Assembly: GCF_014279815.1 (NCBI RefSeq)
Contig: NZ_CP047941.1
Location: forward strand, 186,001 to 250,000
Reading direction: 5' to 3'
Origin: Synechococcus sp. NOUM97013
GTDB taxonomy: Bacteria; Cyanobacteriota; Cyanobacteriia; PCC-6307; Cyanobiaceae
Length of the DNA: 64,000 bases
Positions 49,492 through 64,000 of this stretch are shown piece by piece; the first letter of the stretch is position 1; the number at the start of each line of letters is the position of its first letter. Below the pieces are notes generated by a model, which was not told where the DNA came from, made no database searches, and saw only the letters and a program-made list of their open reading frames with translations. Made by a program: the position numbers and the translations under genes.

Positions 49492-50588
49492 TGCTAGATA
49501 CTTCGTTTTGGGCAGGTAGACGTGTTTTGCTCACTGGACACACAGGTTTCAAGGGCAGCTGGCTGTCCTTGTGGCTATTGAAACTTGGAGCTGAGGTATG
49601 GGGCTATTCCCTAGCACCGGAGGGACAACGTTCTCTATTCGAGGAGCTTGCTCTTGCTCGAGGCAAGTTGCATCATCAGCTGGGTGATATACGCGACTTA
49701 CAGTCACTACAAGAGGCTGTAAGACAAGCCCAGCCAGAGGTTGTGCTGCATTTGGCAGCGCAACCTCTGGTGCGACGCAGTTATCGAGATCCTTTGGGCA
49801 CATGGGCCACAAATGTGCAGGGTTGCCTGCATTTATTTGAAGCGCTGACTTCTTTGCAGCACCATTGCGTTGTAGTGATGGTTACCACTGATAAAGTGTA
49901 TGCGAATCGCGAATGGGTTTATGGATACCGGGAGGAGGATCGACTTGGAGGACACGACCCTTATAGTGCTAGTAAAGCTGCTGCTGAGCTAGCAATTTCT
50001 AGCTGGCGGGATAGTTTTTGCGGCAGTTGTTTACATCAAACTCCCTTCCTTGCGATAGCTACAGCTCGGTCAGGCAACGTGATCGGTGGTGGCGATTGGG
50101 CGGAAGATCGTGTAGTTCCTGATGCAATGCGTGCTTTAGCTGCCGGTAAACCGATTCCTGTACGCAGCCCCGAAGCAACCCGACCTTGGCAACATGTACT
50201 TGAACCTATAGGAGGCTATTTACTGCTAGCTGAAAAGCTTGCTGCTGTTGGTAGCAGCGATAAATATTTATTCTCTAGCGCCTTTAACTTTGGCCCCCTG
50301 ATAGAAGCTAATAGATCGGTTAGTGAGCTAATAGGATTAATATTACAGACTTGGCCGGGGTGTTGGAATGATCTTTCCGATCCGTCGGCGCCACATGAAG
50401 CTGGAAGACTTCATTTGCAGATTGACAAAGCACACCACCTTCTCAACTGGAGGCCTCGCTGGGATTTTGCTACAGCAGTAGCTCGCACTGTTCACTGGTA
50501 TCGCTCCGTTTACGAAGGAGTCAGCCCTCTACAGTGTTGTTTATCAGACCTCGAAGCTTATCAGCTTGACCCAACCCATGGCTTCTGA
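49491..50588 (+). CDS. rfbG: CDP-glucose 4,6-dehydratase
   Basis: RfbG converts CDP-glucose to CDP-4-keto-6-deoxyglucose. The 365-residue SDR protein has NAD-binding VLLTGHTGFKGSWLSLWLL, LHLAAQPLVRRSYRDP, MVTTDKVYANREWVYGYRE and the Tyr-x-x-x-Lys in HDPYSASKAAAELA. These are all characteristic of RfbG rather than dTDP-glucose dehydratase. ATG at 49491 overlaps the rfbF stop; the frame is open upstream to GTG 49488 and TTG 49476. It overlaps the epimerase gene by 11 bp. Confidence 0.95.
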   Translation: MLDTSFWAGRRVLLTGHTGFKGSWLSLWLLKLGAEVWGYSLAPEGQRSLFEELALARGKLHHQLGDIRDLQSLQEAVRQAQPEVVLHLAAQPLVRRSYRDPLGTWATNVQGCLHLFEALTSLQHHCVVVMVTTDKVYANREWVYGYREEDRLGGHDPYSASKAAAELAISSWRDSFCGSCLHQTPFLAIATARSGNVIGGGDWAEDRVVPDAMRALAAGKPIPVRSPEATRPWQHVLEPIGGYLLLAEKLAAVGSSDKYLFSSAFNFGPLIEANRSVSELIGLILQTWPGCWNDLSDPSAPHEAGRLHLQIDKAHHLLNWRPRWDFATAVARTVHWYRSVYEGVSPLQCCLSDLEAYQLDPTHGF

Positions 50589-51135
50589 GCTGCGGAGAAC
50601 CAAAATTCAAGGTGTTTTCGAGCTCCGAAGCCATGTATTCGTGGATGCACGTGGCTCTTTTTTAAATGCCTTTCGTGCTCAAGAGGAAGCGTTCATAAGC
50701 TCATGGGGGGACCGAGCTATTGCCCAAGTGAATATCAGTCACAATAAGGTTTTGGGCACCATTCGTGGACTGCACTTTCAGGCTGAACCAAATAGTGAAG
50801 CCAAACTGGTGCGCTGTCTTAAGGGCAGAGTTTGGGATGTGGCAGTTGACTTGCGAATTGACTCTCCTAGCTTTGGTCAGTGGCATGCTGTTGAGCTCAG
50901 TCCTGAACTTAGTAATGCTCTTCTTGTGCCTGAGGGGTGCGCCCATGGTTTTCAGGTTATGCAGCCGGATAGCGAACTGTTTTATCTTCACTCCAGTTTC
51001 TGGGTTCCGGAAGCTGAAAAAGGTGTCCGTTGGGATGACCCTCAGCTGGCAATCTCTTGGCCTCTTTCCCCAATGGAAATGAGTGATCGCGACCGTAATT
51101 TACCCTTGATTTCTGACATTCTTCCTCTCTACTAA
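50578..51135 (+). CDS. dTDP-4-dehydrorhamnose 3,5-epimerase-family protein (RfbC-like)
   Basis: The 185-residue cupin-fold protein resembles RmlC/RfbC. VFVDARGSFLNAFR, the catalytic His region GTIRGLHFQAEPNSEAKLVRC, a typical Asp in DVAVDLRIDSPSFGQW, and VPEGCAHGFQVMQPDSELFY are all present. Because it sits between rfbG and a sugar C-methyltransferase, its substrate is probably a CDP-4-keto-6-deoxyhexose rather than a dTDP sugar; this is inference from context. ATG at 50578 lies inside the end of rfbG. An in-frame TTG at 50566 is less likely. Confidence 0.88.
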   Translation: MASELRRTKIQGVFELRSHVFVDARGSFLNAFRAQEEAFISSWGDRAIAQVNISHNKVLGTIRGLHFQAEPNSEAKLVRCLKGRVWDVAVDLRIDSPSFGQWHAVELSPELSNALLVPEGCAHGFQVMQPDSELFYLHSSFWVPEAEKGVRWDDPQLAISWPLSPMEMSDRDRNLPLISDILPLY

Positions 51136-51147
51136 CCTTTCTTTTCT

Positions 51148-52365
51148 ATGGCTTACGCCTGCCGCCACTGCGGATCAGTGTTGGGAGACTCGGACACAGT
51201 TATTGATCTAGGTCACCAGCCACCCAGCAACTCTTACCTCACTACAGAACAGCTGGCTATGCCTGAGGTCACCTACCCTCTTAAAGTCTATGTGTGTCCG
51301 AACTGCTGGTTGGTGCAATTACCTGCTCATGCCTCAGCGGAAGAGTTATTTACTGCTGACTATGCCTATTTTTCAAGCACTTCAAGTAGTTGGTGTGCCC
51401 ACGCAGAGCAGTTTGTGACATTGGCAGTTGAGCGGTTGGATTTAGATCTTACCAGTCATGTTGTGGAGTTGGCTTCGAACGATGGATACCTACTTCAATA
51501 TTTCAAGAAAAAAGGTATTTCATGTTTAGGCATTGAACCAACTCATGCTACGGCAGAGGCCGCTCGAGGAAAAGGCATCGAGACAATCGAGTGTTTTTTT
51601 GGTTTGTCTTTGGCTGAGCAGCTAGAACCTGCAGATCTGGTTGTAGCCAATAATGTGCTAGCTCACGTACCAGATATCAATGATTTTGTGGCTGGTATCG
51701 CACGTTTGCTAAAGATTAACGGGCGTGCTTCAATCGAATTTCCGCATCTTCTGAGGCTACTGATAGGTAATCAATTCGATACGATTTATCATGAGCATTA
51801 TAGCTATTTGTCCCTTCGGATTGTTCAACGTATCGCACATGCAAAGGGAATGGATGTTGTTGATGTTGAGGAATTGCCTACACACGGAGGCAGTCTTCGA
51901 GTATGGCTGGCTCATAAGGGTATTGCGGAGCCCACAGCATCAGTGTTAGCTATATTGCATGCAGAAGCCGAAATAGGCTTAGAACAGCACTCGGCTTACA
52001 GCAATTTTCAGACACGTGCTGAGAGGGCCAAATTCAAGCTTTTGCAATTCTTGCTTGATGCAAAACGTCAGGGTAAGCGAGTGCTTGGATATGGTGCGGC
52101 TGCTAAGGGTAACACCCTGCTGAACTACACCGGTGTCCACGCTGACCTACTAGAATACGTAGGCGATCTTGCAATCAGCAAGCAAAACAAATTTCTTCCA
52201 GGAAGCCATATTCCAGTAATAAGCCCTGAGCAGCTTGCTGCTCAGAAGTTCGACTCACTTCTGGTGTTGCCTTGGAACTTGATTGATGAAGTCACCGAGC
52301 AGTTCCCTCATAAAGAATTAGTTACGGCTATTCCAGATCTCAGGTTTTGCTCGAAACAAGTGTAA
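51148..52365 (+). CDS. sugar C-methyltransferase (TylCIII/NovU-like)
   Basis: The 405-residue protein has the three-part layout of nucleotide-sugar C-methyltransferases. First is an N-terminal zinc-type Cys pair set (YACRHCGSVLGD and YVCPNCWLVQLP) with LGHQPPSNSYLT. Second is a central SAM-binding domain (VVELASNDGYLLQYFKKKG). Third is a C-terminal domain with VLGYGAAAKGNTLLNYTG. The family adds a methyl group to C-3 of 4-keto-6-deoxy sugars. After rfbF, rfbG and an epimerase, the predicted product is a CDP-linked branched 6-deoxyhexose. It starts 12 bp after the epimerase gene. Confidence 0.9.
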   Translation: MAYACRHCGSVLGDSDTVIDLGHQPPSNSYLTTEQLAMPEVTYPLKVYVCPNCWLVQLPAHASAEELFTADYAYFSSTSSSWCAHAEQFVTLAVERLDLDLTSHVVELASNDGYLLQYFKKKGISCLGIEPTHATAEAARGKGIETIECFFGLSLAEQLEPADLVVANNVLAHVPDINDFVAGIARLLKINGRASIEFPHLLRLLIGNQFDTIYHEHYSYLSLRIVQRIAHAKGMDVVDVEELPTHGGSLRVWLAHKGIAEPTASVLAILHAEAEIGLEQHSAYSNFQTRAERAKFKLLQFLLDAKRQGKRVLGYGAAAKGNTLLNYTGVHADLLEYVGDLAISKQNKFLPGSHIPVISPEQLAAQKFDSLLVLPWNLIDEVTEQFPHKELVTAIPDLRFCSKQV

Positions 52366-52434: not shown

Positions 52435-53574
52435 ATGTCCCCTCAAATTCCAGTTTTTAAACCACTCATTGAAAAAGAGGAGATCTCAGCTGCTGTTAAA
52501 TCTCTTGAGTTAGGTTGGCTTGGCATGGGTAGTTATGTCCAGCAGTTCGAAAAAGCAGTCGCTGATATATGTAACTTTGCTCCTGACAGTAACAAGTATG
52601 TTGTTGCAGTCAGCACCGGCCATGCTGCATTACACTTATCTCTCCTCATGATTGGAGTCGGTCCTGGCGATGAGGTTATTACTCCGTCCTTCAACAATGC
52701 TGCAGATTTCCAAGCGATCAGAGCATGTGGTGCTGAACCTGTTTTTGTTGATATAGACGAAAACACACTTTGTATTGATCCAACGAAAATTGAAGAGTTA
52801 ATAACTGATAAGACGAGATGCATAATAGCAATGGATTACGATATTTTTATAAGTGACCATGCAGCTTTGGCGGAAATTTCACTTCGTACTGGGATTCCAA
52901 TATTGCATGATGCGGCACATTCATTTGGATCAACTTACAAGGGGCGACCGATCGGCAACCAACACCAATACACAATGTTCAGCTTTGATCCTGTTAAGAC
53001 GATTACGTGTATTGATGGTGGTGCCGTTATTGTAAGTGGGGAGGATGCTCTTAAAAAGCTACAAGCAAAGAGGTTAATTGGTATGACTCAGTCAGCCGCG
53101 CAAATGTACACTAATTCAAGAGCTTGGACATATGATATAGAAGAGTTAGGCTTTCGTTATCATATGCCTAATCTGCATGCGGCAATTGGTGTTTCTCAGA
53201 TTGATAAAATTGATGAGATACGCTACACACGACAGCAGGCTTGCATGCGTTACTACAACGAGTTATCGGTTCTTGATTGGATTGAAGCACCGAAAGGCGA
53301 CTTTAATTCAATCAATCCGTTCTTATATTATGTCAAGGTTCTTAATGGTAAACGTACTGAACTAAGAGAGCATATGAAAAGGTGTGGTGTTGATACAGGT
53401 ATTCACTGGCAGGCCGGTCACAATTTTAGTTTCTTGAAAGAATGTCGCAGGGGGTCGCTCGATGTTACTAACCGAATAGTTGACCAAATTCTTTCATTGC
53501 CATTGCATAGTAAGATGTCTCCACATACACTAGACCAGGTAATCGAATCAGTTCGTTCTTTCAATTGTGGCTAA
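52435..53574 (+). CDS. DegT/DnrJ/EryC1/StrS-family PLP aminotransferase
   Basis: This 379-residue protein is a nucleotide-sugar aminotransferase type enzyme. It has IPVFKPLIEKEEISAAVKS, VAVSTGHAALHLSLLM (PLP phosphate site), PILHDAAHSFGSTYKG and the PLP lysine in FSFDPVKTITCIDGG. Because the Lys is present it should be a true aminotransferase, not the RfbH-type dehydrase in which it is replaced by His. The substrate is probably a keto sugar from this locus. The next gene starts within its last codons (8-bp overlap). From here on the DNA is markedly AT-rich. Confidence 0.9.
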   Translation: MSPQIPVFKPLIEKEEISAAVKSLELGWLGMGSYVQQFEKAVADICNFAPDSNKYVVAVSTGHAALHLSLLMIGVGPGDEVITPSFNNAADFQAIRACGAEPVFVDIDENTLCIDPTKIEELITDKTRCIIAMDYDIFISDHAALAEISLRTGIPILHDAAHSFGSTYKGRPIGNQHQYTMFSFDPVKTITCIDGGAVIVSGEDALKKLQAKRLIGMTQSAAQMYTNSRAWTYDIEELGFRYHMPNLHAAIGVSQIDKIDEIRYTRQQACMRYYNELSVLDWIEAPKGDFNSINPFLYYVKVLNGKRTELREHMKRCGVDTGIHWQAGHNFSFLKECRRGSLDVTNRIVDQILSLPLHSKMSPHTLDQVIESVRSFNCG

Positions 53575-56096: not shown

Positions 56097-56780
56097 ATGA
56101 ATCAACAAATCATAGATTTTTTGGGAATCATACCGGCACGTTCAGGCTCTAAGCGCCTTCCAAACAAAAACATACTTCCTTTGAGAGGCAAAGAACTTAT
56201 TTATTATTCGATTTTTGCTTCCAGTCAAAGTAAATATTTAACTGAAACGATTTTTTCTACAGATTGTGAAATAATTCAATCTATTGCTAAATCTTTTGGA
56301 GCCTATTCTCCTTTTATAAGACCCAAATATCTCGCTGAAGATAATATCACAAATATTGATGTGATAAAGCATGCTATTAACTGGTACAAGGAGACTAGAG
56401 ACGCTCATATAAAAAATATTGTTCTTCTTCAGCCCACATCGCCATTTAGAACATCTCATGATATCGATAAATCAATTCAAATTTTCTGCAAAAACAATAG
56501 TCCGACATTAGCGTCTGTTACCGGTCCATATAAAAAGAGACATCCAACGCTGATGAAAATACATGACAATAAAATGACTAAATATTCTCATGAAGACGAA
56601 TCTACATATTACAGATATAATGCCAGCATATATATATCATCATTTGACCATTTACACACTATGGGATCTATTTTTTCTGACGAACAGTCCTTTTATATTA
56701 TGAGCAATTATCAGATTGATATTGATACAGAAGAAGATCTTAAGGCCGCTAACATGCTGGCTCCAATGTACTTACCATGA
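56097..56780 (+). CDS. neuA: acylneuraminate cytidylyltransferase-like (CMP-nonulosonate synthetase)
   Basis: The enzyme should activate a nine-carbon acidic sugar with CTP. The 227-residue protein has the signature GIIPARSGSKRLPNKNILPL, FSTDCEIIQSIAKSFGA, and VLLQPTSPFRTSHDID, with late IDIDTEEDLKAANML. It matches short NeuA/PseF/LegF proteins rather than KdsB. The next gene starts in its stop codon (ATGA), and a neuB homologue is 4 kb downstream on the same strand. Exact sugar (sialic, legionaminic, pseudaminic or Kdn-like) is not decided. Confidence 0.9.
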   Translation: MNQQIIDFLGIIPARSGSKRLPNKNILPLRGKELIYYSIFASSQSKYLTETIFSTDCEIIQSIAKSFGAYSPFIRPKYLAEDNITNIDVIKHAINWYKETRDAHIKNIVLLQPTSPFRTSHDIDKSIQIFCKNNSPTLASVTGPYKKRHPTLMKIHDNKMTKYSHEDESTYYRYNASIYISSFDHLHTMGSIFSDEQSFYIMSNYQIDIDTEEDLKAANMLAPMYLP

Positions 56781-57682
56781 TGAATAAACTGACAATAGCG
56801 ATTCCTACTTATAATCGCCCTCGTCAGCTTGAAAAGCTATTACATTGTATATCCACCTCAAACTGTGCTTCTGAGCTTGTTTTATTTATATCTGAAAACT
56901 TCCCTCAAAATCAAGATGTCAAAAGAGTTATTGATAAGTATAGACCTCACTTAAATCTAATACATATTACTCAGCAGAAATCTATTGGCGCTGTGGGAAA
57001 TTTCTGGTATTGCCTTAGGAATGCCCCTACTGACTATTTCATGTTAATCGGAGATGATGACTATGTTTCTGTCGACACAATATACAATTCTTTCTTGAAA
57101 CTCACCAGTTGCCCAACTTCTTTGGCTATATTTAATAATATTCAATTAGTCGATCAAAACAAAACTATTTTGGCTACAACTGATTTCGATCTCGAGTTTT
57201 CATCGTTTATTGATTATATATTATCACAATTTAAAATCAATTTTATATTTTACGATGGACGATCAAAAATAAGAAAATCTGGCAAATATAATTATCTTAT
57301 TTACTCTGTTTTTAGAAAGAAGGTCTTAACTAATTACTGCAAAGGACCATATCAATTTACAGGTAACGAGCGGGATCTAATCTCTTATACCGCTTTGAAT
57401 GGTCCAATACTTATTAACCAAGAATTTGGTGTCACGAAAACTTATCATGACCAGAATATAGGATCTACTCCTATGTCGAAGCTTAAGAGTACCGATATAT
57501 CAATTTACAATTATAAACAACAGTCCAAATCGTTCCTCAAGCAATCTATAATTTTATGGTGGGTTATCCGTCATAGTAATGCCTCAGCCCCCAAAAAACT
57601 ATTTTATGTCCTTTTTTCATATATGAGAGTATTCCTGATGAAAATTGCACCATTGTATATGCGATTAAAAACTCTTTTTTGA
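56777..57682 (+). CDS. GT2-family glycosyltransferase
   Basis: A 301-residue GT-A protein beginning TIAIPTYNRPRQLEKLLHC. The DxD-type metal motif is in FMLIGDDDYVSVDTIY. There are no C-terminal membrane helices, but a hydrophobic basic tail (KKLFYVLFSYMRVFLMK) may attach it to the membrane. It overlaps neuA by ATGA. It likely transfers one sugar of the repeat unit; donor is unknown. The frame that follows starts near its stop. Confidence 0.85.
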   Translation: MMNKLTIAIPTYNRPRQLEKLLHCISTSNCASELVLFISENFPQNQDVKRVIDKYRPHLNLIHITQQKSIGAVGNFWYCLRNAPTDYFMLIGDDDYVSVDTIYNSFLKLTSCPTSLAIFNNIQLVDQNKTILATTDFDLEFSSFIDYILSQFKINFIFYDGRSKIRKSGKYNYLIYSVFRKKVLTNYCKGPYQFTGNERDLISYTALNGPILINQEFGVTKTYHDQNIGSTPMSKLKSTDISIYNYKQQSKSFLKQSIILWWVIRHSNASAPKKLFYVLFSYMRVFLMKIAPLYMRLKTLF

Positions 57683-57699
57683 TTTACCTCAACTTCATT

Positions 57700-58566
57700 A
57701 TGACTAATTGTATCCCTGTTCTTTTGACCCCGTTTAAAGAAGACTATTCAATTGACTTTGAAGGATTAGAGAATTTACTTGGTTATTATAAAGATAATTC
57801 AATTTCTAGACTCTGGGTTTTGGGTACTGGTAGCGAAGATATGGCTCTTGAGTTTTCTATTCGAAAAACTATTGTTGATTTCGTAGTCAACTATTCAAAT
57901 CAGCATTTTGATTGCCTTGTTGGTACTTCCTTTTATGGACTATCTGAAAGCCTTGCATTTACCGAGGCTCTTAATCAATATAATTTGTCAGGCGTTCATT
58001 ATATGTCATACAGTAATCTACTGTCAACTCAACAAGCTCTTAGAAATTTTAAAGCTATATGCAATTATTCCAACAACCCAGTTATGGGCTACACTTCAGC
58101 TAATTGGGGATTATCCTTTACTTCAAATGAAGTGGATAGTTTTTCTCGCATTAATAATTGTATAGGCATTAAGTATAGTACATCTAATGTTGTGGATACA
58201 GAAAATGCTCTTTCATATCAGTCCTCTCGATTTGAGGTTATACCCGCTGTTGTTAAGCAGCTTTTACCATCACTTATTTTGGGAGCCAAATCCTTTACCA
58301 CGGTAGAAGCATCAATATTTTTAAGCTTAATTACTGATCTTGAAAAAGCCTTTAATAATTCTGACTTCCAAAGGGCAAGAAAAATTCAGCGTGAATTGAA
58401 TAGTGACATCAGCAGCACTTCTAAGTCACCTAGTAAGAATAACTTTTTGCGAAATGCCGAGATTAAGTCAATCTTAGAACATCGTGGAATTTGTAAGCGG
58501 TGGGTAGCGCAGGGTTTCACTCAGATTGACGATCTTGAGTTTGAAGAACTAAAAGATTTTTCTTGA
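57700..58566 (+). CDS. DapA/NanA-family aldolase (dihydrodipicolinate synthase-like)
   Basis: The 288-residue product has the DapA family pattern IPVLLTPFKEDYSIDFEGLE, WVLGTGSEDMALEF, GVHYMSYSNLLS (Tyr region), and the Schiff-base lysine in CIGIKYSTSN. Family members condense or cleave pyruvate with aldehydes (dihydrodipicolinate synthase, N-acetylneuraminate lyase). Its location between neuA-like and neuB-like genes suggests a role in an acidic sugar pathway rather than lysine synthesis. An in-frame TTG at 57679 would overlap the previous gene's end; I prefer ATG 57700. The C-terminus is lengthened with a Ser/Lys-rich segment (SSTSKSPSKNNF). Confidence 0.8.
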   Translation: MTNCIPVLLTPFKEDYSIDFEGLENLLGYYKDNSISRLWVLGTGSEDMALEFSIRKTIVDFVVNYSNQHFDCLVGTSFYGLSESLAFTEALNQYNLSGVHYMSYSNLLSTQQALRNFKAICNYSNNPVMGYTSANWGLSFTSNEVDSFSRINNCIGIKYSTSNVVDTENALSYQSSRFEVIPAVVKQLLPSLILGAKSFTTVEASIFLSLITDLEKAFNNSDFQRARKIQRELNSDISSTSKSPSKNNFLRNAEIKSILEHRGICKRWVAQGFTQIDDLEFEELKDFS

Positions 58567-58584
58567 ATTTTCTATTTTAGTTTC

Positions 58585-60162
58585 GTGAATTCAGCACACT
58601 CGCATTTCCCTTTGCATAAAAAAGACTTAAAAGTTTTCCTTTATGTTAATGATGAGACGTCCTTCAAGTTCGCCCAGAATATTAATTCAATTGCTAAAAT
58701 CAATATTATTGAGACATCTCCAGAGTTTCTCCCTCAGTGCAAAGATAAATTCAAAGATGCTTATGTATTTACTCAAAGTGAAATATTAGACTGTTCGTAT
58801 ATTCATTTAAAGAGTCTTGTAAGTAGATTTTCTTCTTGTCATGTTTCTCTTGATGATGCACAAGCTTTTATAAAATCCCATTATCTCATCATGACTCATT
58901 TATACTCCAGAACGGTTGAGTTATCTACAAGACCTATTGCAGATAAGGATGTATATTTTTTAGGGATTTTTAATTTTTGCTCGGCATTGCTAAATGCTTA
59001 TCCAATTAACTTAGTCATCTTTTTAAATGAGCCTCATCAGATTCATGATTTTATAATTCAACAGATTGCTGCTCAAAAAAATGCGATCTGTATAGATATA
59101 TTGAAAACATTCATTCCCAAATGGGTTGTAATGAGAGACCCAATCCGTGATTTAATGATTTGCAACTCTAGCCGTGATTCTATAAATATTTCCTCTCAAT
59201 TGATTCGAGCAAGTATTGAGAGTAAGTGTACTGCTTCCCAAATGTATGATCCAAGGACTAAATTTAGGCTGTCGAATGCACGAGCTTATCCATTAAAATC
59301 TTTTCCGATCTATATCATAAAGTCTTTTCTAATGGAACTTCCATTGGCTAGAAAATCTTTAAGGATTGGCTTTGCTGCTCTGATTTCATGTTTGCGTGAG
59401 AAAAACATGCCCCATTATTGCTCCACATTAATCACATGCTTTTACCATCGTTTATACCGATTCATAGCAAGGGTTCAATCAGCATTTCTCTATAAAAAGC
59501 AATGCGCTAATAATATTTCGATTAATTTCCACGAGCCTGGCTCTTATGTATTTCTGCCTTTGCAATGCTCTCCAGAACGCCAATCAATGCCATCAGGCAT
59601 GCCCTGCTTTTCTCAAGCGAACTTAATAGAAGAGGTATCTTATCAAGCTTCTCTCTTTTCACTTGATCTTGTGGTCAAGGAACATCCATCCCAGCACAAG
59701 TTGTACCAAAGAAACTATTTAGGGCGTACCTCAGCTTTTTTTGACCTCAATAATTCATTGAATAATTCTATATTTTACCCTTCTTATGTTGATAGTTATA
59801 AGCTTATAGATAATGCTTCTGCTGTGATAGGGATTGGAGGGTCAGTCTGCTGGGAAGCCATCCTTCGAGGACAGTTAACCTATATTGTTGGAAGTCCTTG
59901 GTACAAAGATTTATCTGTTTCCAACAAATATCCAAATGAACAATTTAGTTCAATCAGTGACTTCTTTGATTTTATTAGTTCTACAAGCCGGTACCAGCCT
60001 GCTATCACCTGCGAGACAGATGCGATTTCTAGTTGGTTAAAAGAAAACTTATATTTTTTCCCAATGCACCTGGACGAGTCAGACGACTGCATTTCGGAAA
60101 CCGAAAATTCACTTGCGATTATGACCCATAGAGTGCTAAATTACACAATCGAAAATTTATGA
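58585..60162 (+). CDS. putative capsule-type glycosyltransferase (KpsS/LipB-like C-terminal half)
   Basis: The 525-residue protein has no clear N-terminal family. Its second half shows the pattern of capsule polysaccharide synthesis glycosyltransferases: SYVFLPLQCSPERQSMPSG, LFSLDLVVKEHPSQHKL, and SAVIGIGGSVCWEAILRGQ with TYIVGSPWYKD. Related proteins add Kdo or sialic acid-type residues from CMP donors. That would fit the CMP-sugar genes on both sides, but is inference. Start is GTG at 58585, 18 bp after the aldolase gene. Codon use is strongly AT-rich. Confidence 0.72.
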   Translation: MNSAHSHFPLHKKDLKVFLYVNDETSFKFAQNINSIAKINIIETSPEFLPQCKDKFKDAYVFTQSEILDCSYIHLKSLVSRFSSCHVSLDDAQAFIKSHYLIMTHLYSRTVELSTRPIADKDVYFLGIFNFCSALLNAYPINLVIFLNEPHQIHDFIIQQIAAQKNAICIDILKTFIPKWVVMRDPIRDLMICNSSRDSINISSQLIRASIESKCTASQMYDPRTKFRLSNARAYPLKSFPIYIIKSFLMELPLARKSLRIGFAALISCLREKNMPHYCSTLITCFYHRLYRFIARVQSAFLYKKQCANNISINFHEPGSYVFLPLQCSPERQSMPSGMPCFSQANLIEEVSYQASLFSLDLVVKEHPSQHKLYQRNYLGRTSAFFDLNNSLNNSIFYPSYVDSYKLIDNASAVIGIGGSVCWEAILRGQLTYIVGSPWYKDLSVSNKYPNEQFSSISDFFDFISSTSRYQPAITCETDAISSWLKENLYFFPMHLDESDDCISETENSLAIMTHRVLNYTIENL

Positions 60163-60174
60163 CTTTAAATCCTA

Positions 60175-61227
60175 ATGCCTAACCGTTCTATCACCATCCA
60201 AAATGTTACAATCAACGATAATTCTTCCCCTTTTGTTATCGCTGAAATTGGTCATAATCATCAAGGATCATTAGAATTGTGCAAACAAATGATTGACTCA
60301 GCCGTTTTGGCTGGTGTGTCAGCAGTTAAATTACAAAAACGGAGCAATAAACATCAATTTACTGCTAAAGCTTATAATTCAATTTACAATTCCGAAAATT
60401 CTTTTGGTGTAACTTATGGCGAACATAGAGAAAGGCTTGAGTTTGGTCGTGATGAATATAGTGATCTAATAAAATATTGTCAATCTAAAAATATTATTTT
60501 CTTTTCTACGGCTTTTGATATTCCAAGCTTAAATTTTCTTGTTGAAATGGATATGCCCGTTCTGAAAATTGCTTCGGGTGACATTGTTAACACTCCACTC
60601 TTAAAAGAGGCTTCTGAAACTGGTATTCCTATTATTGCAAGTACAGGTGCTTCTGACCTTGTAGAGGTAAGAAATGCATACGAGATTTTGGCATCTGGCA
60701 AGTCTGAGTTTGCACTGTTGCAGTGTACTTCCGGATACCCTGCTAAGTATGAGGAATTAAATATTAATGTCATAACACAGTTTCGTAATTCATTCCCAGA
60801 CACTGTTATTGGCTTTTCTTCGCATGAAAATGGTATTGTAGCTCCAATTGCTGCATATGTTTTAGGTGCTCGCATTATTGAAAAGCATTTCACTACTGAC
60901 AGAACCATGAAAGGTACTGACCAAGCTTTCTCCCTTTCTCCGTCCGGGATGGCTCAAATGTGTAAAGATCTTTCTAGGATTAAGTTGTCTATGGGCAGTT
61001 CTGACAAAAGAGTTTTGAGTTCTGAGCTTATATCTATGAAGAAGCAACGGAAATCAATTGTTGCTGCAAGGGATTTAGCAAAAGGTCGTATTATTGAAAT
61101 CTCTGATCTTGCTCTTAAGGTTCCTGACGAAGGCCTAAAGCCTTATTTAATTGATAATTTAATAGGCAAAACTTTGAAGGTTGATCTTCTTGAAGATGAC
61201 TATGTCAAAATGGAGGATTTTGCATGA
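60175..61227 (+). CDS. neuB: N-acetylneuraminate synthase-family protein (NeuB-like)
   Basis: NeuB-type enzymes condense phosphoenolpyruvate with a six-carbon (amino)sugar to form a nine-carbon nonulosonic acid. The 350-residue protein shows VIAEIGHNHQGSLELCKQMI, VSAVKLQKRSNKHQFT, ISTAFDIPSLNFL-type sequence, KIASGDIVNTPLLKE, LLQCTSGYPAKYEELN and GFSSHENG. An antifreeze-like SAF domain follows at residues 285-350 (IVAARDLAKGRIIEISDLAL). The DRTMKGTDQAFSL segment is typical of this family. It overlaps the HAD-cupin gene by ATGA. Substrate (ManNAc, ManNAc-6-P, mannose-6-P or diacetamido sugar) is open. Confidence 0.93.
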   Translation: MPNRSITIQNVTINDNSSPFVIAEIGHNHQGSLELCKQMIDSAVLAGVSAVKLQKRSNKHQFTAKAYNSIYNSENSFGVTYGEHRERLEFGRDEYSDLIKYCQSKNIIFFSTAFDIPSLNFLVEMDMPVLKIASGDIVNTPLLKEASETGIPIIASTGASDLVEVRNAYEILASGKSEFALLQCTSGYPAKYEELNINVITQFRNSFPDTVIGFSSHENGIVAPIAAYVLGARIIEKHFTTDRTMKGTDQAFSLSPSGMAQMCKDLSRIKLSMGSSDKRVLSSELISMKKQRKSIVAARDLAKGRIIEISDLALKVPDEGLKPYLIDNLIGKTLKVDLLEDDYVKMEDFA

Positions 61228-62150
61228 CTGATGTAAGTAAAATTAAAGGCTTAATTTTCGATTTTGATGGAGTTTTTACGGATAATACTGTTTGTACCCA
61301 TTCAGATGGAGTGGAGTCTGTAAAGTGCTCTAAGTATGATAGCTATGCAATTAATATATTTAGGCAAGATTTTCCCGAAATTCCCTTAGTTGTTATAAGT
61401 TCGGAAACTAACACTTGTATCAAGCATAGATGCTCTAAGCTTGAAATTAATTTAATTCAAGGTGTTTCTGATAAGCTAGATGCTGCAAAAAAATGGGCGT
61501 TAAATTGCAATATTAGTTTAGTTGATTGTGCATTTCTTGCAAATGATTTGAATGACAAGCGTTTATGTCAGGTTGTTGGATTTCCCTACGGAGTTGGCGA
61601 TTGTAACGATGCTTTGTCGCCCTTCGTAAGAGGTAAAACTGTTTCATTTGGCGGCAACGGTGCAATTAAGGAGTTCTTAGAATTGATTTGTTTTTCAAAC
61701 TTACATCGTCGCTCACGTCACGTTTCTATAGAGAAGTTATCTGCAACCTCCGTTGGTCCCCGCGAATGGGGAGAAGAACTGCTTATTGCAAAGAAAGACG
61801 GTCATTTTACTTTTAAGCAACTTACTCTTAAGAAGGGGGCATCTGGTGGATTGCAATTCCATAGACTTAAAAATGAAGTTGTTTATGTGCTGTCTGGCTG
61901 TCTTCTCGTAAAGCACGATAGGGGGGACGGAAAACTGATTGAGGATATTTTCAGTAAGGGCGATTGTGTACAGTTTCCGCCTGGAAGTATTCATCAGGAA
62001 ATTGCACTGGAGCAATGTGTATTGCTCGAGGTATCTACACCTCATTTCAATGATCGTGTGAGAGTTGAATCTCTGTATGGTCTCACTACAAGCGATACAA
62101 ACTCTTCATTACCATCAACATCACTCCTTGAGATCCGTAATGAATTCTAA
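61224..62150 (+). CDS. fusion of KdsC-like HAD phosphatase and mannose-6-phosphate isomerase-type cupin
   Basis: Residues 1-160 are a HAD phosphatase with nucleophile/general acid D13 and D15 in LIFDFDGVFTDN, motif II VISSETN and motif IV FLANDLNDKRLC. Closest kin are KdsC and nonulosonate-9-phosphate phosphatases. Residues 170-290 are a cupin like the C-terminal domain of type II phosphomannose isomerases: VGPREWGEELLIAK, LQFHRLKNEVVYVLSG (H213, E218) and FPPGSIHQE (H257). Coupled by ATGA to neuB, it could dephosphorylate the NeuB product while the cupin isomerises or binds a hexose. That would suit a phosphorylated-substrate (Kdn- or Neu5Ac-9-phosphate-type) route; this is inference. Confidence 0.82.
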   Translation: MTDVSKIKGLIFDFDGVFTDNTVCTHSDGVESVKCSKYDSYAINIFRQDFPEIPLVVISSETNTCIKHRCSKLEINLIQGVSDKLDAAKKWALNCNISLVDCAFLANDLNDKRLCQVVGFPYGVGDCNDALSPFVRGKTVSFGGNGAIKEFLELICFSNLHRRSRHVSIEKLSATSVGPREWGEELLIAKKDGHFTFKQLTLKKGASGGLQFHRLKNEVVYVLSGCLLVKHDRGDGKLIEDIFSKGDCVQFPPGSIHQEIALEQCVLLEVSTPHFNDRVRVESLYGLTTSDTNSSLPSTSLLEIRNEF

Positions 62151-62179
62151 CCATGAGTAATACTCGAATGAGCACTTAA

Positions 62180-63589
62180 GTGCACACACTTGATTTTCTT
62201 CAACTTCCTCATCACACACTCTTTTTTACTGTGTATCTATTCCCCTCTCCCAAGCCTGTTGACAAAGCCCCATTTCTGGCCTCTGATCCAAATTTGGCAC
62301 TGTATGGATTGCCTTTAGATGTAAAGTTTTGCAATTCTTGCGTTATCAGTAATCAGCGCCCATCAAGTACTGTTGAGTTTAAAAATGATGGTACAACCGC
62401 AAAGTCGGCCATTCATTTTGATAGCTTTGGTATTTGTGACGCTTGTCGCGTCAAAGATCAGAAAAATGAGATTAATTGGGATGAGCGCGAACAAGAGCTG
62501 CGTGATCTTTGCGATCGTCATCGTCGAAATGATGGCCGCTATGATTGTTTAGTTCCTGGTAGTGGTGGAAAAGATAGTTTTATTCAAGCCCATCTACTTA
62601 AGTACAAATATGGTATGCACCCCCTTACATGCACCTGGGCACCGCACATCTACACCGATTGGGGTTGGAAAAACCATCAAGCTTGGATTCATGCAGGCTT
62701 TGACAATTTGCTTTTTACACCTAATGGTAGGGTTCACCGCTTGATTACTCGTTTGGCTGTTGAGAATTTGTTTCATCCCTTCCAGCCGTTTATCCTTGGT
62801 CAAAAAAATCTTGCGCCGAAGATCGCTGCTCAGTACGATATTCCTTTAATATTTTACGGTGAAAATGAAGCTGAATATGGTAATCCAAAGGGAGATATTG
62901 GTTCAGCTAAAAGAAGTTGGAACTATTTTTCGGCTGCGAATGAGGATGATATTTTTTTAGGAGGCTCTTCATTGTCTCAGCTCAGGGAGCTTGGTCTAGA
63001 GCCAATTGATTGGGATCCCTATATGCCTACTAATCCTAATATAATTGATGAAAAGAAGATAGAGGTTCATTACCTTGGTTATTATGAAAAGTGGCACCCT
63101 CAAGGTGCATATTATTACGCAGTTGAGCATGGGGGTTTTCAAAGTTCTTCCGAGAGAACTGCAGGTACCTACAGTACATACAATTCAATTGATGATCGCA
63201 TCGACGATTTCCATTACCATACAACTTGGATAAAGTTTGGTATAGGGCGTGCAACTTATGATGCGGCTCAGGAGATTCGTTCTGGAGATATTACTCGGGA
63301 AGAAGGAGTTGCGCTTGTGCGTAAATATGATGGTGAGTTTCCTGAGCGTTGGGCTGATGAAATCTTCAAATATTTGAGCTTGCCAGACAATCATTTCCCT
63401 AAGGCATCGATGGCTTTTGAGAGTCCAATTTTTGATCGAAATTACTATGATCTTTTGTCGGATAATTTTCGCTCCCCTCACCTTTGGCGTTACTCCGAAG
63501 ATTACGGATGGCAGCTCCGCCATCGCGTATTTGACAATGAGACTATGAGTCAGGAGTTGTCAGCTTCTATGTGGCAAGGTAATAATTAA
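62180..63589 (+). CDS. N-acetyl sugar amidotransferase (WbpG/PseA-like)
   Basis: This 469-residue enzyme has a zinc-type cysteine set (VKFCNSCVISNQRP and CDACRVKD) and an adenylating PP-loop (DCLVPGSGGKDSFIQAHLLK). They match WbpG and PseA proteins that turn an acetamido group into an acetamidino group, using ammonia delivered by HisH/HisF partners. A HisF paralogue follows 9 bp downstream, supporting this. The frame starts at GTG 62180, but 45 residues (MHTLDFLQLPHHTLFF and on) precede the conserved YGLP segment, so the true start may be further in. No ATG is available there. Confidence 0.88.
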   Translation: MHTLDFLQLPHHTLFFTVYLFPSPKPVDKAPFLASDPNLALYGLPLDVKFCNSCVISNQRPSSTVEFKNDGTTAKSAIHFDSFGICDACRVKDQKNEINWDEREQELRDLCDRHRRNDGRYDCLVPGSGGKDSFIQAHLLKYKYGMHPLTCTWAPHIYTDWGWKNHQAWIHAGFDNLLFTPNGRVHRLITRLAVENLFHPFQPFILGQKNLAPKIAAQYDIPLIFYGENEAEYGNPKGDIGSAKRSWNYFSAANEDDIFLGGSSLSQLRELGLEPIDWDPYMPTNPNIIDEKKIEVHYLGYYEKWHPQGAYYYAVEHGGFQSSSERTAGTYSTYNSIDDRIDDFHYHTTWIKFGIGRATYDAAQEIRSGDITREEGVALVRKYDGEFPERWADEIFKYLSLPDNHFPKASMAFESPIFDRNYYDLLSDNFRSPHLWRYSEDYGWQLRHRVFDNETMSQELSASMWQGNN

Positions 63590-63598
63590 GTCAGATCT

Positions 63599-64000
63599 AT
63601 GGCGCTTTGCAAACGTTTAATTGCTCGTCTTGATGTTAAGGGAAGCCGCTTGATTAAGGGTGTGCGATTTGAGGGAGTGCGCGTGCTTGGTGATCCTTCC
63701 GAAGCAGCCCTTCGCTACGCGCAGGCTGGGGCTGATGAACTACTTTATGTTGATGCTGTAGCGAGTTTGTTTGGACGTAATAGTTTATCTGACTTGCTTA
63801 GAAAAACTTGCATTGAGGTTTTTATTCCAATTACTGCTGCTGGTGGTGTGCGCTCCGTCGAAGATGCTGCAGCTCTTCTTTCAGCTGGTGCCGATAAAGT
63901 TGCTGTAAATACCGCCGCTCTTGAGCGCCCCGAGTTGATTACTGAGCTTGCTGAGGCTTTTGGTAGGCAGTGCGTGGTTGCTTCTATTCAGGCAAGGCGT
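63599..64000 (+). CDS. HisF-like glutamine-amidotransferase partner, N-terminal part (cut by window end)
   Basis: The frame starts with ATG at 63599 and runs 134 codons to the window edge. It follows HisF: LIARLDVKGSRLIKGVRFEG (catalytic Asp present), AGADELLYVDAVASLFGRNS, FIPITAAGGVRSVEDAAALL and AGADKVAVNTAALERP. At the second catalytic position canonical HisF has IDAKR; here it is IQARR (Gln131). That suggests a non-histidine role. Position after the amidotransferase fits the LPS/NulO HisF paralogues (WbpI-like); the HisH partner should lie beyond the window. Confidence 0.88.
   Translation, partial: MALCKRLIARLDVKGSRLIKGVRFEGVRVLGDPSEAALRYAQAGADELLYVDAVASLFGRNSLSDLLRKTCIEVFIPITAAGGVRSVEDAAALLSAGADKVAVNTAALERPELITELAEAFGRQCVVASIQARR

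Follow-up and report, generated by a model that had tools for sequence, protein, structure and literature searches.

Two described routes to nonulosonates lie closest to the genes reported here. In Bacteroides thetaiotaomicron and Prymnesium parvum, the established route to ketodeoxynonulosonic acid (KDN) runs from mannose 6-phosphate and phosphoenolpyruvate (PEP) to KDN 9-phosphate, KDN and finally CMP-KDN (PMC6200933). The other is the GDP-linked pathway to legionaminic acid, which in Legionella pneumophila carries a 5-acetamidino group according to the title of a reference in PMC3694923. The window analysed in this study is a stretch of 64,000 nucleotides, positions 186001-250000 of the 2.55-Mb single-contig genome of Synechococcus sp. 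NOUM97013 (code G000), in which a nonulosonate-type gene set begins at position 56097 and runs on past the window end. The description that fits it best is a KDN-like nonulosonate module with an unusual make-up (module A) next to a broken acetamidino-legionaminic module (module B). With roughly even confidence, we propose that module A is a self-contained pathway to a non-aminated, KDN-like nonulosonate via a 9-phosphate. Surface polysaccharides are one of the main targets of phage adsorption in marine picocyanobacteria, and little is known of the acid sugars they contain. The assignment of genes to sugars changes the predicted cell-surface chemistry, which would be that of a non-aminated C9 keto acid and not that of an acetamidino sugar.

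A sequence-only reading of the window had described eight genes of this set as one locus, lying in order on one strand with coupled starts. Open reading frame and profile checks confirmed all eight on the + strand, in several cases overlapping the neighbouring gene by 4 nt, but not their unity, because base composition and comparative gene order divide them at ~62165. The genes are real and belong to two modules. We assign 56097-62150 to module A (NeuA, family 2 glycosyltransferase, DapA-family aldolase, PF05159 transferase, NeuB and a HAD-cupin fusion), and the genes from 62180 to ~8 kb beyond the window to module B, read as an acetamidino-legionaminic set. The features are as follows (window coordinates unless stated otherwise).

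56097..56780, + strand: NeuA1, NeuA-like CMP-ulosonate cytidylyltransferase (PF02348, 79 bits)
56777..57682, + strand: family 2 glycosyltransferase (PF00535, 28 bits; 4-nt overlap with NeuA1)
57700..58566, + strand: DapA/NanA-family class I aldolase paralogue (PF00701, 73 bits; dapA, 88 bits against a cut-off of 206)
58585..60162, + strand: PF05159 capsule-type (KpsC/KpsS-like) transferase (20.2 bits, barely over the cut-off of 20)
60175..61227, + strand: NeuB1, PEP-dependent nonulosonate synthase with SAF domain (PF03102, 256 bits)
61224..62150, + strand: HAD-cupin fusion gene, a single open frame of 308 amino acids (4-nt overlap with NeuB1)
61224..61703, + strand: HAD half, KdsC/KDN-9-phosphate phosphatase-like (NF058599, 80.2 bits; TIGR01670, 73 bits)
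61719..62147, + strand: cupin half (PF07883, 29 bits; PF01050, 14.2 bits, below the gathering cut-off of 23.6)
62180..63589, + strand: N-acetyl-sugar amidotransferase (WbuX/LpNASAT), first gene of module B (TIGR03573, 362 bits)
63599..64000, + strand: N-terminal part of a HisF-HisH fusion, 497 amino acids as a whole, continuing to genome position 251092 (L003:599-2092)
L003:4850-6034, genome 253850-255034: legC aminotransferase pseudogene, recognised by six in-frame stops and two frame changes

A putative KDN-like pathway in module A

Gene content, the fusion, residue states, the conserved gene block, the split into modules and the legC lesions are read directly from the DNA; every reaction and the identity of the sugar we infer. 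The cupin would act on a hexose 6-phosphate, most simply by converting fructose 6-phosphate to mannose 6-phosphate. NeuB1 would condense the hexose 6-phosphate with PEP to a nonulosonate 9-phosphate, which the HAD half of the fusion polypeptide would dephosphorylate. NeuA1 would then activate the product as a CMP-sugar, from which the PF05159 enzyme or the family 2 glycosyltransferase may transfer the nonulosonate to a surface polysaccharide.

The first support for this scheme comes from NeuB1. On TIGR03569 (N-acetylneuraminate synthase) it scores 311 bits, below the cut-off of 399.65, and is not classed in that family. In NmNeuB, Arg314 is reported to hold the N-acetyl group of N-acetylmannosamine in place (PMC6795526). 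At this position NeuB1 has Val, and the SAF-retaining cupin-, HAD- and SDR-linked (short-chain dehydrogenase/reductase) relatives of its clade have Ser, Ile, Thr, Ala or Cys, never Arg, while Arg is found in the LegI of this genome and in two further N-acetyl-type controls. A Gly/Phe position (1xuu residue 133 in the alignment used) is said to track the configuration at C2 and to separate Neu/Leg from Pse synthases (PMC7371886). The Gly of the KIASGD motif is retained in NeuB1, and both NeuB1 and a phage NeuB (L079) have Gly at this position, i.e. the manno type. Both rules behave sensibly, since Phe and Arg occur together in a PseI-like control (L034_11956), the pattern expected for an N-acetylated altro acceptor. 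Taken together, Val314 and Gly suggest that the acceptor has the manno configuration and carries no N-acetyl group, as would mannose 6-phosphate. In the tree, NeuB1 and the phage NeuB of L079 (53% identity) group together at 99/96, within a 46-row clade (100/99) of mostly HAD-, cupin- or SDR-linked synthases that stands apart from LegI.

The second support is the HAD-cupin fusion, which was modelled as two confident domains (mean predicted local distance difference test score, pLDDT, of 89.6). The best NCBIfam score of the HAD half is that on NF058599, the KDN-9-phosphate phosphatase family, where its 80.2 bits remain under the cut-off of 180. The triad E56/R64/K67 is kept in this HAD and in eight relatives (nine HADs, alignment A4). 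PDB titles record mutants of the B. thetaiotaomicron enzyme at E56 and K67; R64 is the third residue of the KDN-9-phosphate phosphatase triad. We propose that the HAD half works like a KDN-9-phosphate phosphatase, although it is not filed as a member. With this triad, the passage through a 9-phosphate suggested in the sequence-only reading appears likely. Its view of the nonulosonate genes as an unusual set, in which an aldolase is combined with a phosphatase fused to a cupin, is supported as well.

Foldseek with the entire fusion model gave only HAD matches among the matches listed; for the fold search the cupin half was modelled alone (pLDDT 92.8). A metal-site-like pattern, Q-x-H-x2-K-x-E ... 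H, is invariant in the 16 cupin-subfamily sequences of alignment A5. All six cupin-subfamily members compared match PF01050, the type II phosphomannose isomerase family, weakly (best E 4.5e-5), and GMP_PMI is the best NCBIfam match of a phage member; the window cupin itself stays below the PF01050 gathering cut-off and is not classed as a type II phosphomannose isomerase. Two Thermococcus phosphomannose isomerases superpose on the model of the window cupin with Z 13.1 and 13.0, the former (7zvm) with a root-mean-square deviation of 1.6 over 99 aligned residues. The nearest named relatives of the cupin are phosphomannose isomerases, at scores below the family cut-offs. Reading the function from the fold alone was rejected, as many cupins tie in structure comparison.

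For activation and transfer, the best NCBIfam match of NeuA1 is the PseF type, under its cut-off. The PF05159 protein is a candidate user of the CMP-ulosonate; KpsC and KpsS of this family are CMP-Kdo transferases. One other genome, G166, repeats the module A block, with PF05159, DapA, NeuB, HAD-cupin and NeuA genes in a row. There the PF05159 protein (39.4 bits) adjoins DapA, the closing NeuA is 48% identical to NeuA1, and the family 2 glycosyltransferase has no match in the locus. In both genomes the block is preceded by the same pair of genes:

50566..52365, + strand: RmlC-like epimerase and C-methyltransferase, upstream of module A (54% and 57% identity to the G166 pair, same order)

Several observations weigh against the proposed pathway. 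No module A member reaches an equivalog cut-off (NeuB 311/400, HAD 80/180, cupin on PF01050 14/23.6). The fold of the cupin ties with CapF (Z 13.7) and KdgF (Z 13.0), and there is no obvious need for a dedicated isomerase because two PF01050 proteins (180 and 98 bits) are already encoded in this genome. The NeuB of G166 has Phe in place of Gly, and its product may differ in configuration from that of NeuB1. In most cupin-linked phage NeuB proteins the SAF domain is missing, so that position 314 is unreadable there. Finally, the aldolase finds no place in the KDN scheme.

The aldolase, the cupin and related loci in cells and phages

The aldolase starts at ATG 57700, with TTG at 57679 also possible, and its residues are numbered in the frame window:57697-58563. 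It belongs to the class I pyruvate aldolase superfamily PF00701 (72.8 bits, cut-off 22.1). The Schiff-base lysine K159, Tyr132 and T44 are retained, K159 and Y132 being aligned, and Trp stands at the position of Arg138 of dihydrodipicolinate synthase in both copies known (window and G166). With 88 bits against 206 on TIGR00674 and this replacement of Arg138 it is not classed as DapA, a true DapA (357 bits) being encoded elsewhere in the genome; nor is it classed as NanA, with 49 and 29 bits against curated cut-offs of 281 or 382 bits. Among 300 Cyanobiaceae genomes an orthologue was found only in G166, and a sample of 339 Cyanobacteriota genomes gave none beyond G000 at E 1e-40; the link to module A therefore rests on two loci. 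We consider the aldolase a genuine but rare extra, which may serve as a lyase or editing enzyme or make a 4-hydroxy-2-keto acid.

At other cupin-bearing nonulosonate loci, the place of the aldolase is taken by an HpcH/HpaI aldolase (L025, L026) or by an MR_MLE and a PanE/ApbA enzyme (L034); L027 has an MR_MLE gene and a 278-residue gene in the PanE position. That DapA-like, HpaI, MR_MLE and PanE enzymes all belong by family to 2-keto acid chemistry suggests a single 2-keto-acid slot that different enzymes fill. The arrangements themselves vary. In two Cyanobiaceae genomes (L025:12565-13810, L026:7932-9144) the HpcH/HpaI aldolase and the cupin are convergent genes and lie within a few kb of NeuB-HAD-NeuA. 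Enolase-superfamily and ketopantoate-reductase-like enzymes lie inside the nonulosonate loci of Prochlorococcus AG-917-B09 (L034:5531-10402, NeuB-HAD-MR_MLE-PanE-NeuA-cupin) and, in a similar set, of G013 (L027:929-5625).

The same cupin was found in phage contigs. A NeuB-led scan of IMG/VR gave 43 viral NeuB genes with NeuA nearby (duplicates removed by eye), accompanied by the cupin only in 13 loci, by an SDR only in 12, by both in none and by neither in 18; Fisher's p of 0.008 for this alternation is only indicative, as the contigs are related. The SDR matches are ~25-33% identical. For a cupin-led scan the 16-row alignment was too diverse, and a closer phage-only alignment was used; about a third of its contigs were shared with the NeuB-led scan. 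Of its 33 loci, 28 have NeuB, 28 NeuA and 29 at least one of them, and the four without either are the four weakest matches. No HAD and no SDR was found in any of the 33, and phage contigs gave no DapA. The missing HAD fits the reported redundancy of sugar phosphatases (PMC6200933). Homologues of terminase, portal or head proteins are present in 21 of the 33 loci, and in L079 terminase and portal genes flank the NeuB-cupin-NeuA cassette. The cupin thus marks nonulosonate cassettes in ~29 phage contigs, most with phage head genes nearby, which suggests that some phages build a nonulosonate themselves. Among 50,697 named-phage records, only one distant relative of the cassette NeuB was found at E 1e-30.

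Other features of these and related loci deserve mention. Glycosylation-like cassettes lie near head genes in L079, L090, L101, L103, L106, L107 and related viral contigs, and beside the phage NeuB-cupin-NeuA genes there are cytidylyltransferase-like (PF01467), methyltransferase-like and other unassigned genes. Cyanophage cupins from nucleotidyltransferase/kinase clusters (S-SM2, P-SSM2, Bellamy and others) form a homologous group, related but different, whose annotation as 'cysteine dioxygenase' or 'nucleotidyltransferase' is doubtful. A recurrent set of NeuB, HAD, SDR, in some cases aldehyde dehydrogenase, NeuA and transketolase occurs in several bacterial phyla (L039, L047, L048, L050, L051, L052, L055, L056); no description of it was found in the literature searched. 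Transketolase also follows NeuB-SDR-NeuA in the phage contigs L080, L099/L100 and L116.

The cupin could instead act on the keto acid itself, by ring-opening, mutarotation or tautomerisation as in KdgF, and the aldolase, HpaI or enolase/PanE enzymes could share this substrate. Superposition on KdgF is as good as on the isomerases, and the varying neighbours are by family all 2-keto acid enzymes. However, the best named family at the sequence level is phosphomannose isomerase, and the alternation of cupin and SDR in phages is more in line with two routes to different acceptor sugars than with a mutarotase, so that we regard action on the keto acid as somewhat unlikely. There is also a wider, tentative proposal, which we hold to be possible rather than probable: NeuB, cupin and NeuA may represent an undescribed class of nonulosonate pathway common to picocyanobacteria and uncultured phages, with the cupin as a dedicated sugar-phosphate enzyme that alternates with an SDR, an interchangeable 2-keto-acid slot that would add a further step in the cellular versions and phages that make their own nonulosonate from the cassette. 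No description of a NeuB with a cupin or aldolase in such a setting was found in the literature search, a weak negative because subscription journals lay outside its scope.

The acetamidino genes and module B

Module B consists, in order, of the amidotransferase, the HisF-HisH fusion, a CBS-nucleotidyltransferase (PtmE-like), a second NeuA (PtmB-like), LegB, the legC pseudogene, a formyltransferase, LegI and LegG. The amidotransferase is a WbuX protein (TIGR03573, cut-off 203). What the sequence-only reading took for a HisF paralogue is the N-terminal half of the HisF-HisH fusion, which extends 1.09 kb beyond the window end; of 151 genomes searched, 7 others encode orthologues that are also fused. 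The HisF half comes first, the reverse of the order in yeast His7. Among solved structures, LpNASAT of L. pneumophila (8wex, E 6e-201; PMC10607449) comes closest to the amidotransferase. LegB (TIGR04180, 528 bits, cut-off 475), LegI, the second NeuB (TIGR03569, 489 bits, cut-off 400), and LegG/NeuC (TIGR03568, 466 bits, cut-off 236; genome 257035-258183) are intact beside the decayed legC. The legC relic aligns to residues 6-390 of an intact legC (L171) across three reading frames, the six stops falling within the first of the matching segments. Where related operons have a PglD-like LegH (197 residues), this one has the formyltransferase, and with legC decayed the intact legionaminic gene set (LegB, LegC, LegH, LegI, LegG, NeuA-type, PtmE-type) is not found here. 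Because legC is a pseudogene, module B appears to be inactive or dependent on another aminotransferase, for which the DegT proteins at window position 52435 and genome position 266493 are candidates.

The supposed absence of a hydrolysing epimerase holds for module A and for the same module in G166, around which no NeuC/LegG was found; for the locus it was an artefact of the window edge, as LegG starts 7.0 kb past the window end. A near-complete classical set, of legionaminic type, does lie just outside the window, but it is a broken one, and the genes in the window are not fragments of it.

All genes from 56097 through LegG could still form one pathway, in which LegG, PtmE and LegB supply both synthases (NeuB1 and LegI) and the NeuB1 product receives an acetamidino group from the amidotransferase. 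The genes are contiguous on a single strand, and in a Muiribacterium locus (L055) a NeuB1-like synthase follows LegG-PtmE-PtmB-HisF-HisH-amidotransferase. Yet LegI is a NeuB of its own with Arg314, PtmB is a NeuA of its own, legC is dead, and the HAD step would be superfluous in an unphosphorylated Leg-type route. The G+C content also differs between the modules, with 33-39% from NeuA1 through HAD-cupin, 42% in the amidotransferase and 41-53% in the Leg genes (62% in the first 40 kb of the window, for comparison). In G019, G115 and G038, the same amidotransferase (76-78% identity) and HisF-HisH (50-70%) stand in complete Leg operons of the order PtmB-LegB-LegC-LegH-LegI-LegG-amidotransferase-HisFH-PtmE, and within the 20 kb read there NeuB1, DapA and cupin are absent. 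Both genes also occur in four other genomes (G014, G078, G017, G007) without any NeuB match in the stretch read, and the G166 locus has module A without either. On this gene order (G019, G115, G038, G166) a single pathway with an acetamidino NeuB1 product, as the sequence-only reading had suggested, was rejected, and we regard it as clearly improbable. We assign the amidotransferase and HisF-HisH to module B and not to the window NeuB, and the acetamidino function with them, because they sit in Leg operons and the source of 8wex has 5-acetamidino legionaminic acid.

A reading of module A as a remnant, in decay or used for salvage, whose aldolase cleaves nonulosonates and which no longer makes a surface sugar, would fit the DapA/NanA-family enzyme and the neighbouring legC lesions but is very improbable, as each of its six genes has an open frame, catalytic residues are retained in the aldolase, NeuB and HAD, a biosynthetic NeuA and transferases are present, and no NanE/NanK homologue was noted among the neighbourhood open reading frames read by eye.

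Comparison with described systems

The window cupin shares its fold with the type II phosphomannose isomerase cupins (PF01050, GMP_PMI), and its motif layout W-G-x-E ... Q-x-H ... E ... H resembles theirs. Unlike them, it is partnered with NeuB and NeuA and not with a guanylyltransferase, and has only 14 bits to PF01050. With the GDP-linked legionaminic acid pathway, in its acetamidino variants of Legionella and Aliivibrio, module B has PtmE, PtmB, LegB, LegI, LegG and the amidotransferase in common; it differs in the legC pseudogene, in the formyltransferase in place of LegH and in HisF and HisH being one protein. Phages with nonulosonate genes are described for the prophage pair epaA-epaB (PMC12053666) and for phage O-acetyltransferases (PMC6586298). 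Whereas these modify the sugar of the host, the phage cassettes found here carry a synthase and an activating enzyme. Module A most resembles the CMP-KDN pathway of B. thetaiotaomicron (BT1713-1715) and P. parvum, with a NeuB-type synthase, NeuA, a putative 9-phosphate route and no NeuC, and with a KdsC-like HAD phosphatase as in B. thetaiotaomicron. It differs from that pathway in the fusion of the HAD to a cupin, in the added DapA-family aldolase and PF05159 transferase, and in scores that stay below the orthology cut-offs.

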